From: Prochlorococcus marinus XMU1411
Lineage (GTDB): Bacteria > Cyanobacteriota > Cyanobacteriia > PCC-6307 > Cyanobiaceae
Reading direction: 5' to 3'
DNA: 64,000 nt
Assembly: GCF_017696075.1 (NCBI RefSeq)
Contig: NZ_JAAORI010000001.1
Coordinates: 1-64,000, forward strand
The notes below the pieces were generated by a model, which saw nothing but the letters and a program-made list of their open reading frames with translations, searched no databases and was not told the DNA's origin. This document shows positions 37,955 to 60,535 of the stretch, piece after piece. The translations under genes and the position numbers were made by a program. Positions within the stretch are counted from its first letter, which is position 1; each line of letters opens with the position of its first letter.

Positions 37955-37964
37955 TCTTCTTTTG

Positions 37965-38897
37965 ATGAATAAAAAACCAAAAAAAATTATTGATTTATTT
38001 GCAGGTATTGGCGGTTTTCATTTGGCATTTCATAAATTGGGATTGGAATGTGTTTTTGCATCTGAAATTAATGCAGATGCACGAAAGTCTTATAAGCAAA
38101 ATTTTAAATCTTATGTATCAAAAGACTTCTTCGAGAAAAGTTTTAATGCCGATATTTATCAACAAGATAAATTTGCAATACCAGATTTTGATATTTTATG
38201 TGCTGGTTTTCCCTGCCAACCATTTAGTCAGATTGGATATAAAAAAGGTTTTTCTGAAGATTTGGAGGGTAGAGGAAATTTATTTTTTGAAATTGCAAAG
38301 ATTTTAGAAATCAAAAGACCTAAGGCATTTTTTCTTGAAAATGTTCAGCATCTTATTAAACATGATGATGGAAGGACCTTAGATATTATTAAACAAACAA
38401 TTGAGAAATTAGATTATTCATTTTATTACAAAGTAATTAGGGCATCTGATTTTAATTTGCCTCAACATAGACCAAGGATATTTATGGTTGGGTTTTTAGG
38501 AGAGTCAAATGAACAAAAAATGTTTAATTTCCCTAAACCAATTCCTCTTCAGAATAGTATGAGTGATGTCTTTGAAGCAGAATGCCCAAAAAAAATTGGT
38601 TATACCCTGAGACTAGGTGGTAGTGATTCAGGTATCCACGATAGAAGAAACTGGGATAGATATTGGGTTAATGGAGTGGATACTAAAATTAAACCTCTTC
38701 ATGGTAAGCGTATGCAGGGTTTCCCAGATGATTTTTATCTATCTGAGAGCAGATCAAAGTCAATGAGACTTTTAGGCAATAGTGTTGCTGTTGATGCTGT
38801 TTATTATGTTGCTAAAAATATGATTGATTATATGAACGATAAAGAGAAATTTGTGTTTAATAATTTATTTGAACCTTTTCTCAAAGTCGCTGTTTAA
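37965..38897 (+). CDS. DNA (cytosine-5-)-methyltransferase, type II
   Basis: A complete m5C methyltransferase of 310 residues from the ATG at 37965. Motifs are in order: I IIDLFAGIGGFHLAF (about 8-22), IV AGFPCQPFSQIG with catalytic Cys about 84, VI FFLENVQHL (122-130), VIII LPQHRPRIFMVGF (165-177), IX KRMQGFPDDF (248-257) and X LLGNSVAVDAV (269-279). The target-recognition region between VIII and IX is short (about 70 residues), and specificity cannot be read from sequence. It lies 10 bp downstream of the putative nuclease gene inside the guaA-flanked island. Confidence 0.96.
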   Translation: MNKKPKKIIDLFAGIGGFHLAFHKLGLECVFASEINADARKSYKQNFKSYVSKDFFEKSFNADIYQQDKFAIPDFDILCAGFPCQPFSQIGYKKGFSEDLEGRGNLFFEIAKILEIKRPKAFFLENVQHLIKHDDGRTLDIIKQTIEKLDYSFYYKVIRASDFNLPQHRPRIFMVGFLGESNEQKMFNFPKPIPLQNSMSDVFEAECPKKIGYTLRLGGSDSGIHDRRNWDRYWVNGVDTKIKPLHGKRMQGFPDDFYLSESRSKSMRLLGNSVAVDAVYYVAKNMIDYMNDKEKFVFNNLFEPFLKVAV

Positions 38898-38946
38898 GTA
38901 CTATTGATTGTTCAACTTTTTTGGGAAGGTGTCCCTAAAATTTATT

Positions 38947-39171
38947 ATGGCGAGAATTAAACAAACACCTTATGAAGTTCTACTCTCTGAATTTGGTGGA
39001 GTACGTTCCTTAGCAAGGGCGATTGATCGTGATCCTGGTTCGGTTAATAAATGGCGAAAAGGGGATGGTACTATTCCTTCTTCAATACAAAGAAAAGTTT
39101 TAGAAACTGCTTGGGATAGAGGTATTAGAATCACAGCAAATGAAATAATTTTTGGTAGAGATGAAAACTAA
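38947..39171 (+). CDS. Small helix-turn-helix DNA-binding protein
   Basis: A 74-residue protein from the ATG at 38947. GGVRSLARAIDRDPGSVNKW forms a compact Cro/CI-like helix-turn-helix, followed by IPSSIQRKVLETAWDRGI and ITANEIIFGRDE. Phage-associated regulators of the carph-isopro type look like this. Placed just after a methyltransferase it could be a controller (C) protein. A weak inverted repeat GGGA-AGGTG-TCCC at 38923-38935 lies just upstream and might be an operator. An upstream TTG start (38908) is possible but less likely. Confidence 0.78.
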   Translation: MARIKQTPYEVLLSEFGGVRSLARAIDRDPGSVNKWRKGDGTIPSSIQRKVLETAWDRGIRITANEIIFGRDEN

Positions 39172-39224: not shown

Positions 39225-39749
39225 ATGGGAGAAGAAAATAAACGGATAATTCGATATCACGACACTGTACCTCCTTATTGCGATGTGTTTAAAATTTCGG
39301 AAAGGAAATATGAAAGCGATACTGACAAGGATCATGATGTTTCATACTCAAAAGAACATTTTGAATTAGAAAGTTCTAACCCTGTAGATACTATTAAAGT
39401 GGCAACTTTTGCAAGAAATAAGAAATACAAATCAAATGAAATGATTAAAAAAGATCATTATTATGTTTGTGAATTTACATGGCAACCATATAAAAGGATC
39501 AAGGAATTTAAGAATATGGATGAAATGACATATGAAGGTACCGAAATTACAGAAACCAGTCATTTACTCTTCTGGATTTTTTGGGATGAAGATTTTAGTT
39601 GTTGGCAGAGATCACCAGCATTTGCTTGTAGGAATGCATTATCACATAATGATGCAGGAGATTGGATGATGAAAGAAATAACTGCGGCAGGGAGCGAAGC
39701 GCATGCTGTTGATTACTTCAAAAATGGGGTATTGGAGATATTAATTTAA
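39225..39749 (+). CDS. Unknown protein, tandem paralogue 1
   Basis: A 174-residue soluble-looking protein. It shares with the next gene the pattern LESSNPVDTIKVATF, a YYVCEF strand, aromatic FWIFWDEDFSCW, then AGDWMMKEITAAGSEAHAVD and the nearly identical end FKNGVLEILI. The two are clearly related by duplication. I recognise no family. Position inside the island downstream of the regulator suggests accessory or defence cargo, without direct evidence. Confidence 0.7.
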   Translation: MGEENKRIIRYHDTVPPYCDVFKISERKYESDTDKDHDVSYSKEHFELESSNPVDTIKVATFARNKKYKSNEMIKKDHYYVCEFTWQPYKRIKEFKNMDEMTYEGTEITETSHLLFWIFWDEDFSCWQRSPAFACRNALSHNDAGDWMMKEITAAGSEAHAVDYFKNGVLEILI

Positions 39750-40642: not shown

Positions 40643-40960
40643 TTAATTGTTTATTTTTTTAATTTTTTCTAAATTCCATTTATCAAATATTAATTTCATT
40701 TCTTTTTCGTAGTATTTTACTTTCTTTGAAAAAGGTAATTTTTGAATAATTATCCCAAAGGGGAATTTAAAAAAAGAAGAAACATAAACAAAATAAAACT
40801 CGACAAATGAAGGTTTTGGTGGGAGAGGTAAATTTTTTATATATGCCCAATCAATGCATGGTTTTAGTTGCTTATCACTAGCAGTAATATTTTTTCTACA
40901 TCTCCAGTAAGAGAATAGATAAATTCCTATAAAAATCGGTAGTGGAAGAAGTCGCAACAT
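40643..40960 (-). CDS. Small membrane-anchored protein, unknown
   Basis: A 105-residue protein with an N-terminal hydrophobic segment (LRLLPLPIFIGIYLFSYWRC), a second possible one at about 55-75 (FYFVYVSSFFKFPFGIIIQK) and a basic C-terminal tail (KKVKYYEKEMKLIFDKW). The function is unknown. It runs opposite to the island genes and ends 37 bp past the right repeat, so it is probably part of the host chromosome rather than the inserted segment. Confidence 0.6.
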   Translation of the reverse strand: MLRLLPLPIFIGIYLFSYWRCRKNITASDKQLKPCIDWAYIKNLPLPPKPSFVEFYFVYVSSFFKFPFGIIIQKLPFSKKVKYYEKEMKLIFDKWNLEKIKKINN

Positions 40961-41064
40961 TAAATATCAAAGATAATTTTTCCCCTCATTGATTCATATT
41001 AAAGTGATAGTTAAGTTTTTATGAAAATTCCTGATGATAAACCAAAGCAAAAACTTAACTTATT

Positions 41065-41216
41065 AAAAATTAAATAAGAGGGCATTTGTTTGCCCTCTTC
41101 GAGTCTTATGCACCTCGCTGTCCACAAAGTCGATGAAGTGCTTTTGACTCCTGAATTATTCCTACTCCTACTCAATAGAAAAAGATAGTCGTACAAACCA
41201 CAAAGCACTTCTACTC
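41065..41216 (-). ncRNA. Candidate structured small RNA of about 150 nt
   Basis: On the minus strand a TATTAT -10-like box (41222-41227) precedes a region with no convincing coding frame. It contains GAAGTGCTTT near its 5' end and the exact complement AAAGCACTTC about 60 nt later, giving a 10-bp long-range stem. CTTTGTGG occurs twice. The region ends in a nine-base-pair hairpin (AAGAGGGCA / TGCCCTCTT) followed by ATTTAATTTTT. These are the marks of a trans-acting sRNA; I cannot name it. Confidence 0.45.
41076..41099 (-). terminator. Rho-independent terminator
   Basis: A perfect nine-base-pair stem AAGAGGGCA with its complement TGCCCTCTT and a six-base loop. Read on the minus strand it is followed by an A/T-rich tail ATTTAATTTTTAATAAG. 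Read on the plus strand it is followed by CGAGTC, so the minus-strand orientation is favoured. Confidence 0.65.
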
Positions 41217-41283
41217 GGGTAATAATACTCTATGAATTTCAAGTTAATAGGTGGACAATATAGATATAGATCTAGGAGGTCTT

Positions 41284-41466
41284 ATGAAACTATTCAATCA
41301 ATTTAACATTCTTCCAAGATACTTAACTGCGTTTAATTATGCAGGGTTAAATCTTAACGAGACTCCAAAAGAACTTGAGAAATGTACCCCTGAGTTTCAA
41401 AACTTTTGGGATAAAGAATGTAGGGAACATCCAACAAATCAAAATTGTCTAATTTACTGTGACTGA
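41284..41466 (+). CDS. Small Cys-rich protein with strong Shine-Dalgarno sequence
   Basis: A 60-residue protein from the ATG at 41284, chosen because AGGAGG lies seven bases upstream (41272-41277), unusually strong for this genome. The sequence MKLFNQFNILPRYLTAFNYA has a weak amphipathic or hydrophobic N-terminus, then NETPKELEKCTPEF and FWDKECREHPTNQNCLIYCD with four cysteines. The KELE-C pattern resembles the tail of the 30362-30589 protein. Function unknown. It is divergent from the candidate sRNA. Confidence 0.65.
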   Translation: MKLFNQFNILPRYLTAFNYAGLNLNETPKELEKCTPEFQNFWDKECREHPTNQNCLIYCD

Positions 41467-41622: not shown

Positions 41623-43104
41623 TTAAAAAGGTAAGTTTCGATATTTTTCAGATTGGGTGAGTATTTCTATACAAGGTTTCATTATATCTTTATAGTTTTT
41701 CCACCCACCGATTGATTTTGAATTGATGGGGGATCTCACTTGAACTTTGCTTGCTGTAAATATTTCGCGTGGATTTAAATGTGGAGACAGATATGCATCG
41801 CTCCACTCCCAACCTAACCAAGAGATTAAAGATTTAATTTCTTGGTTAGGATTACAAACTAAGGAGTCATAATTTAAGTCATATATTTTTGATCTAAATC
41901 TACTTTTATAATTGCTCATTATTTCTTCTTGTTTTAAATAAATAATTGCACAATCCATCAAAGAAGAGGAATATTCATTTCCCTGTGTAAAATGAGCACG
42001 ATAAATTGAGAGAATATTATCTAAGGGATTTCGATAACAATGAATAATTTTTGAGTTCGGTATTTTTTTTGCAATAATACCTGCGTATAAAAAATTATAT
42101 AAATTTTTATTAGTTGTTTTATTTGATTGTTTCTTAAGATCTCTGATTTTCTCCCAATATCTTTCAGCCAGATTTAACTTTTGGTTGCTTTTTTTATAAT
42201 CCAAAAATGATTTTTCTAAGATCTCACTTTCACCTAAATCATCGATATCAGGGTTCATACTTAGAATTGATTCCAATAATGTAGAACCACTTCTTGGCAT
42301 TCCCACAATAAAAATACTTTCATGAGATTTTATATATTCTTTTTGATTGATTGCTTGTTTATTAGATTCAATAAGTAATGCTTTAGATTTATTAATAAGA
42401 GCATCACAGTTGGATGGATGAAGGGTAAGTTTTAATTGATTTGCTAACTGAAGGAATTTAGAGCTATCTTCGTAATTTTTTTCTTTGTGAAGAATATTTG
42501 CTCTAGCAAAGTAAATATTAATTTGATCTTCTTTTGTCTTGAGATTTAAAATACTTTCATTAAATAGCTGATTTTTCCAGTTCTTATTTTCACTAGAGTA
42601 TTTAAGTGAGGATAGTAAATAGTATGCTTCTGTATAATTAGGATTGAGTTTAATTACTTTGCTGTATGATAATTCTGCTTCCTTTAATTTTCCAAGATTA
42701 GATAAAGCATGTCCAAGGTTAAAATATGCTTTTACGTAATTAGGATTTAGTTCAATTGCTTTTCGGTATAGTAATTCTGCTTCCTTTAATTTTCCACGGG
42801 TAGACATTAGATGTCCAAGATTGTAATGTACTTCCGCATGTTTAGGATTAAGTTCAATTGCTTTTCGGTATAGTAATTCTGCTTCTTTTAGTTTGCCAAG
42901 ATCAGACAATATAACTCCATAATTAGAAAAAACTAAGTGATTTTTAAAACCTTGATCTATAAAAGATTTATAGTATTTTGCTGCTTCTGAAATATTACCT
43001 TTTGAGTGAAAATAAAATGCTTTATTTATTATTTGCTCTTGAGAGGCTTTACTTTTCTTCTTGCCTGTTTTTTTAGATTTATACTCCTCTCCAAAACCTT
43101 TCAT
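41623..43104 (-). CDS. TPR-sulfotransferase fusion protein
   Basis: A 493-residue two-domain protein from the ATG at 43104. Residues about 25-170 are tetratricopeptide repeats (AEVHYNLGHLMSTRGKLKEA and similar). From about 262 comes a PAPS sulfotransferase: ESIFIVGMPRSGSTLLESIL is the 5'-phosphosulfate loop, and CYRNPLDNILSIYRA fits the 3'-phosphate-binding motif. Such TPR-sulfotransferases are recurrent cargo of Prochlorococcus genomic islands and may modify surface polymers or tyrosines. The substrate is unknown. Confidence 0.9.
   Translation of the reverse strand: MKGFGEEYKSKKTGKKKSKASQEQIINKAFYFHSKGNISEAAKYYKSFIDQGFKNHLVFSNYGVILSDLGKLKEAELLYRKAIELNPKHAEVHYNLGHLMSTRGKLKEAELLYRKAIELNPNYVKAYFNLGHALSNLGKLKEAELSYSKVIKLNPNYTEAYYLLSSLKYSSENKNWKNQLFNESILNLKTKEDQINIYFARANILHKEKNYEDSSKFLQLANQLKLTLHPSNCDALINKSKALLIESNKQAINQKEYIKSHESIFIVGMPRSGSTLLESILSMNPDIDDLGESEILEKSFLDYKKSNQKLNLAERYWEKIRDLKKQSNKTTNKNLYNFLYAGIIAKKIPNSKIIHCYRNPLDNILSIYRAHFTQGNEYSSSLMDCAIIYLKQEEIMSNYKSRFRSKIYDLNYDSLVCNPNQEIKSLISWLGWEWSDAYLSPHLNPREIFTASKVQVRSPINSKSIGGWKNYKDIMKPCIEILTQSEKYRNLPF
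42620..42930 (-). repeat. 102-bp TPR-coding DNA repeats
   Basis: Three consecutive 34-codon units in the TPR region are close to identical at DNA level. AATTGCTTTTCGGTATAGTA (plus-strand reading) occurs in two of them, and AATTCTGCTTC followed by TTTAATTTTCCA-like sequence in all three. They encode GKLKEAELLYRKAIELNPN-type repeats. The similarity suggests recent duplication or gene conversion. Confidence 0.8.
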
Positions 43105-59062: not shown

Positions 59063-60535
59063 ATGAACAATTTGGAATCTTGGGAAGCTGTGATTGGTTT
59101 GGAAACTCATGTACAGCTTAATACGAAAAGTAAAATATTCACATCTGCTTCAACAGCTTTTGGCGATGCACCTAATACTCATATAGATCCTGTAGTTTGT
59201 GGTTTACCGGGAACTCTCCCAGTTTTGAATGAGACTGTTCTTGAGTATGCTGTGAAAACTTCTTTAGCATTAAATTTAAATGTTGCAGAACATTGTAAAT
59301 TTGATAGAAAACAATATTTTTATCCTGATCTGCCTAAAAATTATCAAATTTCACAATTTGATGAGCCACTAGCTGAAAATGGCTGGTTAGAGGTTGAAAT
59401 AATTGAAAAGAACAAAGAACCTTATATCAAAAAAATTGGGATAGAAAGATTACATATGGAAGAAGATGCTGGAAAACTAGTCCATTTAGGTAGTGATAGA
59501 TTAGCTGGTTCTAAGTATTCCTTAGTTGATTACAATCGTGCTGGAATAGCACTTTGTGAGATTGTAAGTAAACCAGATATTAGATCAGGTAAAGAGGCAT
59601 CTGAATATGCTTCAGAGATCAGAAGAACAGTTAGATATCTAGGCGTATCAGACGGAAATATGCAAGAGGGTTCATTGCGATGTGATGTCAATATTTCAGT
59701 TAGAAAAGGACCTAATGCTCCATTTGGCACCAAAGTGGAAATAAAAAATATGAATTCATTTTCCGCAATTCAAAAGGCTTGTGATTATGAAATAGCAAGA
59801 CAAATAGAAGTTTATGAAAATGGAGGAAAAATTTTCCAAGAAACAAGGTTATGGGATGAAGCTAAGCAACTCACAAAAAGTATGAGAATGAAAGAAGGCA
59901 GCAGTGACTATAGATATTTTCCTGATCCTGACTTAGGACCAATTGAAATAACAAAAGCCCAAAAAGAAATATGGTTAAAAGAACTTCCAGAATTACCTTC
60001 AAAGAAAAGAAATAAATATGTAAATGAATTTGGGTTATCTGCATATGATGCAAGGGTAATTTCTGATGAAATTAATATGGCTAACTTTTTTGAAGAAACA
60101 GTAGCTAATGGTACTGATGCCAAACTAGCTTCAAATTGGGTAACAAGTGATATTGTGGGTTATTTAAAAGCAAATAAACTTAGTTTTAGTGACTTAAAAC
60201 TTAGTCCTGAAAATCTTGCTGAAATGATAAACATGATCTCAAATAAAACTATAAGTGGAAAAATTGCAAAGGAAATTTTACCTGAACTAATTCAAAAAAA
60301 TATCTCTCCGAAAAAATTTGTTGAAGAAAAAGGGTTGGCCATGATATCTGATTCTTCAAGTATTTTACCAATAATTGATGAACTTATAACTGAATATCCA
60401 GATGAGGTTCAAGCATTTAGAAATGGCAAAACTAAATTACTTGGTTTTTTTGTTGGTCAACTAATGAAAAGAACAAAAGGTAAAGCTGACCCTAAACTTG
60501 CAAATAAACTTCTTGCAGAAAAATTGAATAGCTAA
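59063..60535 (+). CDS. gatB: Aspartyl/glutamyl-tRNA(Asn/Gln) amidotransferase subunit B
   Basis: Part of the GatCAB complex that converts Glu-tRNA(Gln) to Gln-tRNA(Gln). The ATG at 59063 gives MNNLESWEAVIGLETHVQLN, the family start, and 490 residues; an upstream in-frame TTG at 59006 is unlikely. Other signatures are YPDLPKNYQISQFDEPLAEN, HMEEDAGKLVH, VDYNRAGIALCEIVSKPDIR, SLRCDVNISVR and SSDYRYFPDPDLGPI. The C-terminal YqeY-like helical domain is complete. coaE converges five bases later. Confidence 0.97.
   Translation: MNNLESWEAVIGLETHVQLNTKSKIFTSASTAFGDAPNTHIDPVVCGLPGTLPVLNETVLEYAVKTSLALNLNVAEHCKFDRKQYFYPDLPKNYQISQFDEPLAENGWLEVEIIEKNKEPYIKKIGIERLHMEEDAGKLVHLGSDRLAGSKYSLVDYNRAGIALCEIVSKPDIRSGKEASEYASEIRRTVRYLGVSDGNMQEGSLRCDVNISVRKGPNAPFGTKVEIKNMNSFSAIQKACDYEIARQIEVYENGGKIFQETRLWDEAKQLTKSMRMKEGSSDYRYFPDPDLGPIEITKAQKEIWLKELPELPSKKRNKYVNEFGLSAYDARVISDEINMANFFEETVANGTDAKLASNWVTSDIVGYLKANKLSFSDLKLSPENLAEMINMISNKTISGKIAKEILPELIQKNISPKKFVEEKGLAMISDSSSILPIIDELITEYPDEVQAFRNGKTKLLGFFVGQLMKRTKGKADPKLANKLLAEKLNS

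Follow-up and report, generated by a model that had tools for sequence, protein, structure and literature searches.

Prochlorococcus is a very abundant photosynthetic cell in which, according to the parts of PMC2518516 that were available, protein regulators are few, the functions of most small RNAs (sRNAs) are unknown and, for strain MED4, Hfq is reported absent. The same parts of this source (Steglich 2008) describe Yfr11/Yfr16, a two-copy sRNA family of MED4. In the available parts of PMC5082946 and PMC3906501, the turning down of carbon fixation has so far been framed around the classical phage cp12, and the latter mentions in general terms cyanophage proteins that resemble the C-terminal part of CP12.

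We analysed an sRNA gene on the minus strand, together with the microprotein gene divergent from it, in the window, that is, the whole stretch of 64,000 nucleotides taken from a Prochlorococcus marinus XMU1411 assembly of 1.67 Mb in 6 contigs. Yfr11/Yfr16 fitted the sRNA by length, copy number and location in islands and were considered as candidates; the MED4 sequences at their published coordinates (complement(358606..358754) and complement(657392..657529), checked via the positions of the Yfr10 and Yfr18 motifs) are not homologous to it, with best E values of 4.4 and 0.60, whereas the same small search gives the MED4 copy at 1348 kb an E value of 1e-33. The genome used as MED4, from the genus to which the window also belongs, contains 22 bases identical to part of a published MED4/PCC9511 primer, a stretch shared by 12 named Prochlorococcus single-cell or MAG contigs. 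The comparison with Yfr sRNAs, which a sequence-only reading of the locus had proposed, identifies the sRNA with none of Yfr11, Yfr16 and Yfr20. The MED4 copy at 1348253-1348405, the one family member found in this genome by covariance model R1, overlaps no Table 1 entry in the available part of PMC2518516. Rfam 15 gave no match in the window at gathering score; the nine matches up to E 10 are all far below that score and include no cyanobacterial sRNA family. The available parts of the literature, including PMC6778093, PMC3898218, PMC2897979 and PMC7368042, hold no description matching the sRNA; Yfr22-27, Yfr29, Yfr106-108 and TibYfr1-5 lay outside this comparison, and one copy may already be named. 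No description of an sRNA-microprotein cassette was found in the same parts of the literature.

The sRNA gene and its divergent partner

Copies of the sRNA were compared in (i) A2, a structure-blind alignment of 43 rows, and (ii) A6, in which 68 matches, weak ones down to E 0.01 included, are aligned to covariance model R2. The following features were placed in the window:

41066..41216, minus strand: sRNA gene, ~150 nt, with ends placed from the -10 box and the terminator; conserved in A2, non-coding, fold z -4.10
41222..41227, minus strand: -10 box TATTAT of the sRNA, within a G-N-GTA-N4-TACC dyad
41151..41216, minus strand: 5′ half of the RNA, a candidate pairing region of putative function
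41101..41150, minus strand: conserved local hairpin GAGUC-4nt-GCACUUC-loop-GAGGUGC-4nt-GACUC
41076..41099, minus strand: intrinsic terminator hairpin of 9 bp, then a T-rich tail; found by terminator scan, with pair changes in A6
41231..41236, plus strand: putative -10 box TATGAA of the microprotein gene, assigned by position and by similar upstream stretches
41274..41279, plus strand: Shine-Dalgarno sequence AGGAGG of the microprotein gene
41284..41466, plus strand: 60-aa microprotein gene, type A, with coding constraint and a C-terminus resembling that of CP12

The sRNA gene is almost certainly real. Comparison between genomes establishes a conserved non-coding sequence with a terminator, a local hairpin and a divergent partner at a nearly fixed distance, and at this level of comparison the locus would qualify as a stand-alone sRNA gene with a putative promoter of its own and an intrinsic terminator. 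The sequence-only reading, which had proposed a minus-strand sRNA with a promoter-like box and a strong terminator, is supported on this point, and all the sequence elements that it named are present at their positions. The adjoining small-protein gene, to which it had ascribed a strong Shine-Dalgarno sequence, is likewise real, with coding constraint and AGGAGG 4 bases before the ATG; its 'unknown membrane gene' corresponds to 40643-40960. The 152-nt unit folds better than 200 of 200 dinucleotide shuffles (z -4.10), and at a mean column identity of 89% in A2 the RNA body is highly conserved. A terminator scan of 3.5 kb returned two terminator-like sites, compared with a mean of 1.3 on both strands together in shuffled sequence, and the minus strand holds only that of the sRNA. 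The promoter scan requires a -35 box and does not have TATTAT in its list; the dyad around this box is present in 44 of 45 rows, the exception being the MED4 copy (L045). Within the RNA, GAAGTGCTTT lies at 41211-41202 and AAAGCACTTC at 41144-41135, both read on the minus strand, and CTTTGTGG occurs twice, at 41205-41198 and 41129-41122. AGGAG is found at 41169-41165 in the 5′ half and again at 41152-41148, where it overlaps the hairpin; 29 of the 43 A2 rows have at least two such motifs, 11 have one and three have none.

Further observations concern other parts of the window. Three 102-bp direct repeats at 42623-42928, within a 495-aa ORF, would fit three 34-residue units. By eye, an ORF at 37962-38897 with a cytosine-methyltransferase-like motif is followed by a short ORF (38908-39171) and then by two similar ORFs at 39225 and 39841.

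The sRNA family is widespread in the genus. A DNA search of 32 genus genomes chosen for completeness finds it in 29 at E <= 1e-3, with at most four copies each, and nine of ten single-contig genomes have a match at E <= 0.01. Covariance model R1, run at a threshold of E <= 0.01 on the 392 genomes of the family that are at least 80% complete, matches 151 genomes in four of 40 genera: 128 of 147 in the window genus (a row count that includes the window's own genome), with up to five matches each and seven of the 128 genomes weak (E 0.002-0.007), 21 genomes of a second genus, g28, and one borderline match in each of two further genera. In the window genome there is a single strong copy, besides a weak match of 76 bases (E 0.004). 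Comparison places copies at several shared genomic sites, some of them orthologous between genomes. Some copies (L053, L098, L099) are degenerate; L099 and L053 were set aside as too degenerate to interpret, and L160, the sequence of which looks coding, was rejected as a chance match. At five loci of g28 (L136, L145, L147, L150, L155) two related sRNA matches replace the sRNA-microprotein pair: they lie head to head, the second match being the weaker one, apparently with one common promoter region. Cyano-1 (RF01701), which we take to be the Yfr2-5 family, lies ~0.5-1.6 kb from the sRNA copies at L132, L134, L137, L147, L163 and L166, and at L132 Yfr10 stands beside it.

Of 68 distinct copies in genomes other than that of the window (seven duplicate loci having been removed), 62 have a near-full-length microprotein ORF on the opposite strand, starting 61-67 nt from the base matching 41219; 36 of these partners are of type A, 11 of type B and 15 of type C. 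The partner is truncated in three of the remaining six copies and absent from the other three. Among 34 type A rows, 59 of 103 unique changes are synonymous and 44 other, a fraction of 0.57 compared with 0.23 expected; rows L035 and L082 of this type are altered. The -10 box of the sRNA and the putative -10 box of the microprotein gene are 3 bp apart, and a CTAT-AATTT-like stretch, recognised by eye and with varying letters, stands upstream of 22 of 30 related genes, some of them without the sRNA.

A profile of types A and C has members in 12 of 12 genomes. At 18 of 30 microprotein loci the sRNA is found in the stretch examined, 15 times directly adjacent; the other 12 lack an sRNA match at E < 0.05 within that stretch, and therefore the coupling is not obligatory. 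Some relatives without the sRNA keep, by eye, part of the 5′ region. At L195, L198, L202, L206 and L207 a conserved GTACC..TTCCTC stretch stands, again by eye, at the expected sRNA start upstream of the microprotein gene, and is possibly another divergent RNA. The opposite slot at g28 loci L134, L138, L140 and L142 holds a different protein of 61 aa, type D; otherwise this slot has the second, head-to-head sRNA match, with the type D frame further on in several cases. In MED4 (L070 13702-15405), ~1.4 kb with three small ORFs lies between the small gene and the sRNA, and apparently splits an ancestral cassette.

Coding potential and fold of the RNA

The minus-strand frame 41011-41208 is open in the window and, with changes counted per row, A2 is enriched in synonymous ones (0.36 vs 0.25 overall; 0.50 vs 0.24 in the 3′ part), both of which speak for a short mRNA or a dual-function RNA. 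This signal is gone when recurring changes are collapsed into single ones (37 synonymous, 133 non-synonymous; 0.22 vs 0.24 expected), and the per-row excess would stem, as we read the alignment and not by calculation, from two variable columns. In-frame stops occur in 15 of 42 rows and indels in seven, the frame passes through the terminator and no Shine-Dalgarno sequence was seen for it. The frame was rejected with its unique-change count at expectation, and an mRNA or dual-function role is exceedingly improbable. Codon-like conservation of this frame had been named beforehand as the finding that would speak against an sRNA; no coding signal was found and the sRNA reading stands.

Two folds have been weighed for the non-coding RNA. 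The minimum free energy (MFE) structure of the window RNA contains the 10-bp long-range stem of the sequence-only reading and lacks the local hairpin, and the window RNA alone may form this stem in vitro. The family does not preserve it: the cells of the stem in A2 are paired at 87.1% compared with 87.0% in shuffles, covariation is absent, and its two outermost pairs are lost in 22 and 14 copies, respectively, of the 43. The 3′ arm of the stem pairs instead in the local hairpin, which is kept in related genera. Among eight divergent members the MFE structure contains the local hairpin in seven and the long stem in none; the exception, the degenerate L053, has no local hairpin and folds no better than its own shuffles. 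In A2 the local hairpin is paired at 94.5%, with covariation not above shuffles. Its arms change together, GAACUUC with GAAGUUC (L043, L132) and GCACUCA with UGAGUGC (L089); A2 rows with changed arms, e.g. L043, have indels too. In A6, hairpin and terminator are jointly paired at 92.1% compared with 82.5% in shuffles, two-sided cells number 117 compared with 32.2, a count that related rows inflate, and covariation is 0.291 compared with 0.142 (reached in 0 of 500 shuffles), in an alignment that is biased towards the structure to which it was fitted. All eight counted pairs of the terminator are changed on both sides in A6.

Three covariance models trained on the same 43 sequences, R1 (the RNAalifold fold), R2 (the local hairpin) and R3 (the long-range stem), were compared, as a fairer test of the folds, on 19 distant held-out loci outside A2, found with R1, and on 14 nearby held-out copies. 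R2 outscores both R3 and R1 in 18 of the 19 distant loci. Among the nearby copies R2 exceeds R1 in 12 of 14, and R3 exceeds R2 in eight and falls below it in six, which, like the window MFE structure, favours the long stem. The RNAalifold fold, which pairs the 5′ end with the part preceding the terminator, is well paired in HL copies (helices at 96.3% and 94.8%), yet it was rejected on these scores, R1 also falling below R3 in 14 of 19 distant and in 14 of 14 nearby loci. Nor is there support for CTTTGTGG as a target-pairing site, as had been suggested together with the stem: a perfect-seed target search in 11 genomes for one 10-mer, GTCCACAAAG, which is complementary to the second copy and its flanks, gave no enrichment, with 10 places other than sRNA copies compared with 22 for the reversed control. 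A fold and function based on the long-range stem, with CTTTGTGG serving as seed, are very improbable; by comparison across the family, the conserved fold is the local hairpin at 41150-41101 followed by the terminator.

CP12 resemblance and cyanophage relatives of the partner

Microproteins of types A and C and their phage relatives share the C-terminal motif C-x3-P-x4-C-x-[IV]-Y, which reads C-x3-P-x4-C-x-I-Y-x-D in the type A protein of the window and is absent from types B and D. In profile searches of the PDB, CP12 is the sole match with A3 (E 0.4) and the first match with A4 (E 0.19), followed by an unrelated chain at E 0.28. Against eight CP12 sequences from family genomes, hhalign returns P 5e-4 and a probability of 30.5% over 16 columns. 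The Pfam CP12 model gives matches below cut-off in two of 15 members, the better one at E 0.0026, and another Pfam family matches three of 15 (best E 0.018). Across 12 genomes the CP12 model identifies a single true CP12 per genome and two further hits under the threshold, each of which coincides with a locus that the microprotein profile also detects; of 14 control genomes lacking CP12 it matches four, one of them above cut-off. The similarity spans the last ~16-21 residues, all family matches are below curated cut-offs, and neither the CP12 core AWD_VEE nor the N-terminal cysteine pair was seen by eye in the A4 sequences. No single one of these results is decisive; together they are suggestive of a tail resembling the GAPDH-binding tail of CP12; whether the microprotein would also have a CP12-like activity is a plausible proposition that we doubt slightly more than we believe.

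Relatives of the microprotein are encoded on 38 IMG/VR contigs, one of which (L211) is likely a chimera with host DNA. In cyanophage P-TIM68 the relative, AIR93482.1, lies directly after a heat-shock protein gene, with DNA polymerase two genes on, and a separate canonical CP12 is encoded at 59917-60129. Of the 38 contigs, 34 extend far enough upstream for a comparison, and in 33 of these an Hsp20 C-terminal motif, recognised from the contig sequences and the P-TIM68 annotation, stands directly before the gene. Searched with R1 over flanks of up to 2 kb, the viral contigs show the sRNA in the chimeric contig alone, and five others give weak matches (E 0.085-0.97); by this comparison the cyanophage relatives of the partner are without the sRNA in the flanks examined. 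INPHARED gave no DNA match to the sRNA (blastn, E <= 0.1). The chimeric IMG/VR contig with the sRNA has host sequence apparently joined to T4-like phage genes: L210 1-6699 carries Prochlorococcus sRNA, microprotein and a rhomboid-like gene joined to such genes, and is likely an assembly chimera. Partner types B and D have no match in INPHARED, and IMG/VR holds five weak type B matches and no type D match.

Proposed role and comparison with known systems

We consider it rather probable that the locus belongs to a redundant family of trans-acting sRNAs whose bidirectional promoter region is shared with a CP12-like microprotein gene. The ~150-nt non-coding RNA would be one member of this redundant, often multi-copy Prochlorococcus family, with transcription starting in an AT-rich promoter region that it shares back to back with the microprotein gene. 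With 3 bp between the two -10 boxes, simultaneous use of both promoters seems unlikely; the region would serve a single polymerase at any one time, and sRNA and microprotein would be co-controlled or mutually exclusive. The RNA would act in trans, base pairing via its 5′ half with the AGGAG motifs or via the hairpin loop, an action in trans that we favour by a small degree; for a functional coupling of sRNA and microprotein, we judge the balance to be even. The microprotein may damp the Calvin cycle in the manner of CP12; the copy in cyanophages may be controlled by the phage and no longer by the sRNA-linked promoter. A more specific version appears unlikely, though conceivable: the cassettes would form a carbon-fixation switch in which the sRNA is combined with a truncated, CP12-like GAPDH-binding microprotein under overlapping divergent promoters, and T4-like cyanophages would have acquired the microprotein gene, beside hsp20, without the RNA control, at least one phage also having a classical cp12.

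The nearly constant divergent pairing, for which tisB-istR is a precedent, would equally suit a cis-encoded, type I antitoxin-like RNA that pairs with the microprotein mRNA and blocks its translation, and in the window CAUAAGAC of the RNA, directly before the GACUC arm, is a potential match for GUCUUAUG, which spans the start codon of the partner. This pairing is not kept throughout: the 8-nt complement CATAAGAC occurs in 17 of 43 A2 rows, CATACGAC in 18 and neither in eight. Duplex energies, calculated for 18 sRNA-mRNA pairs by a crude method without accessibility, are no better than those of shuffles (z -2.3 to +1.3), so that this method gives no signal for pairing with the neighbouring mRNA, earlier put forward as a possible regulatory target. 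The three HL partner types, each represented by one sequence, have no hydrophobic span of the kind expected of a small type I toxin (maximum 19-residue mean hydropathy 0.27, 0.25 and -0.26), and the microprotein loci at which the sRNA was not found in the flanks examined speak against control in cis as well, leaving it quite improbable. Alternatively, the RNA could be a by-product of the bidirectional promoter with no role in trans, its terminator insulating the microprotein gene and the cassettes spreading by island recombination. The presence of copies at several sites, some of them degenerate, agrees with such a by-product; the high conservation of the RNA body, the compensatory changes in hairpin and terminator and the retention of the RNA sequence in MED4 despite the intervening ORFs do not, and we regard it as improbable. 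A widespread sRNA family that is tied to a microprotein also found in viruses offers a practical way of studying the action of such RNAs; the phage relatives seem to be without the RNA, and therefore its role is testable. If the microprotein works like CP12, both the cassette and the phage gene bear on the turning down of carbon fixation.

Several known systems share individual features with this locus. CP12 and cyanophage cp12 resemble the microprotein in the C-terminal cysteine motif and in their occurrence in both host and T4-like phage, but only the tail of CP12 aligns, and its core and N-terminal cysteine pair were not seen in the microprotein. Cyano-1 and Yfr1/Yfr10 are, like the present family, multi-copy Prochlorococcus sRNAs; unlike them, it has no Rfam match at gathering score. 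Going by the available parts of PMC2518516, AGGAG resembles part of the Yfr2 motif, and Yfr11/Yfr16 are similar to the sRNA in length (149 and 138 nt), in having two copies and in their location in genomic islands, whereas their sequences match it at chance level only. The same parts of PMC2518516 describe for Qrr and PrrF several similar copies at separate loci, as found for this sRNA, most copies of which, unlike those of Qrr and PrrF, stand beside a divergent microprotein gene.
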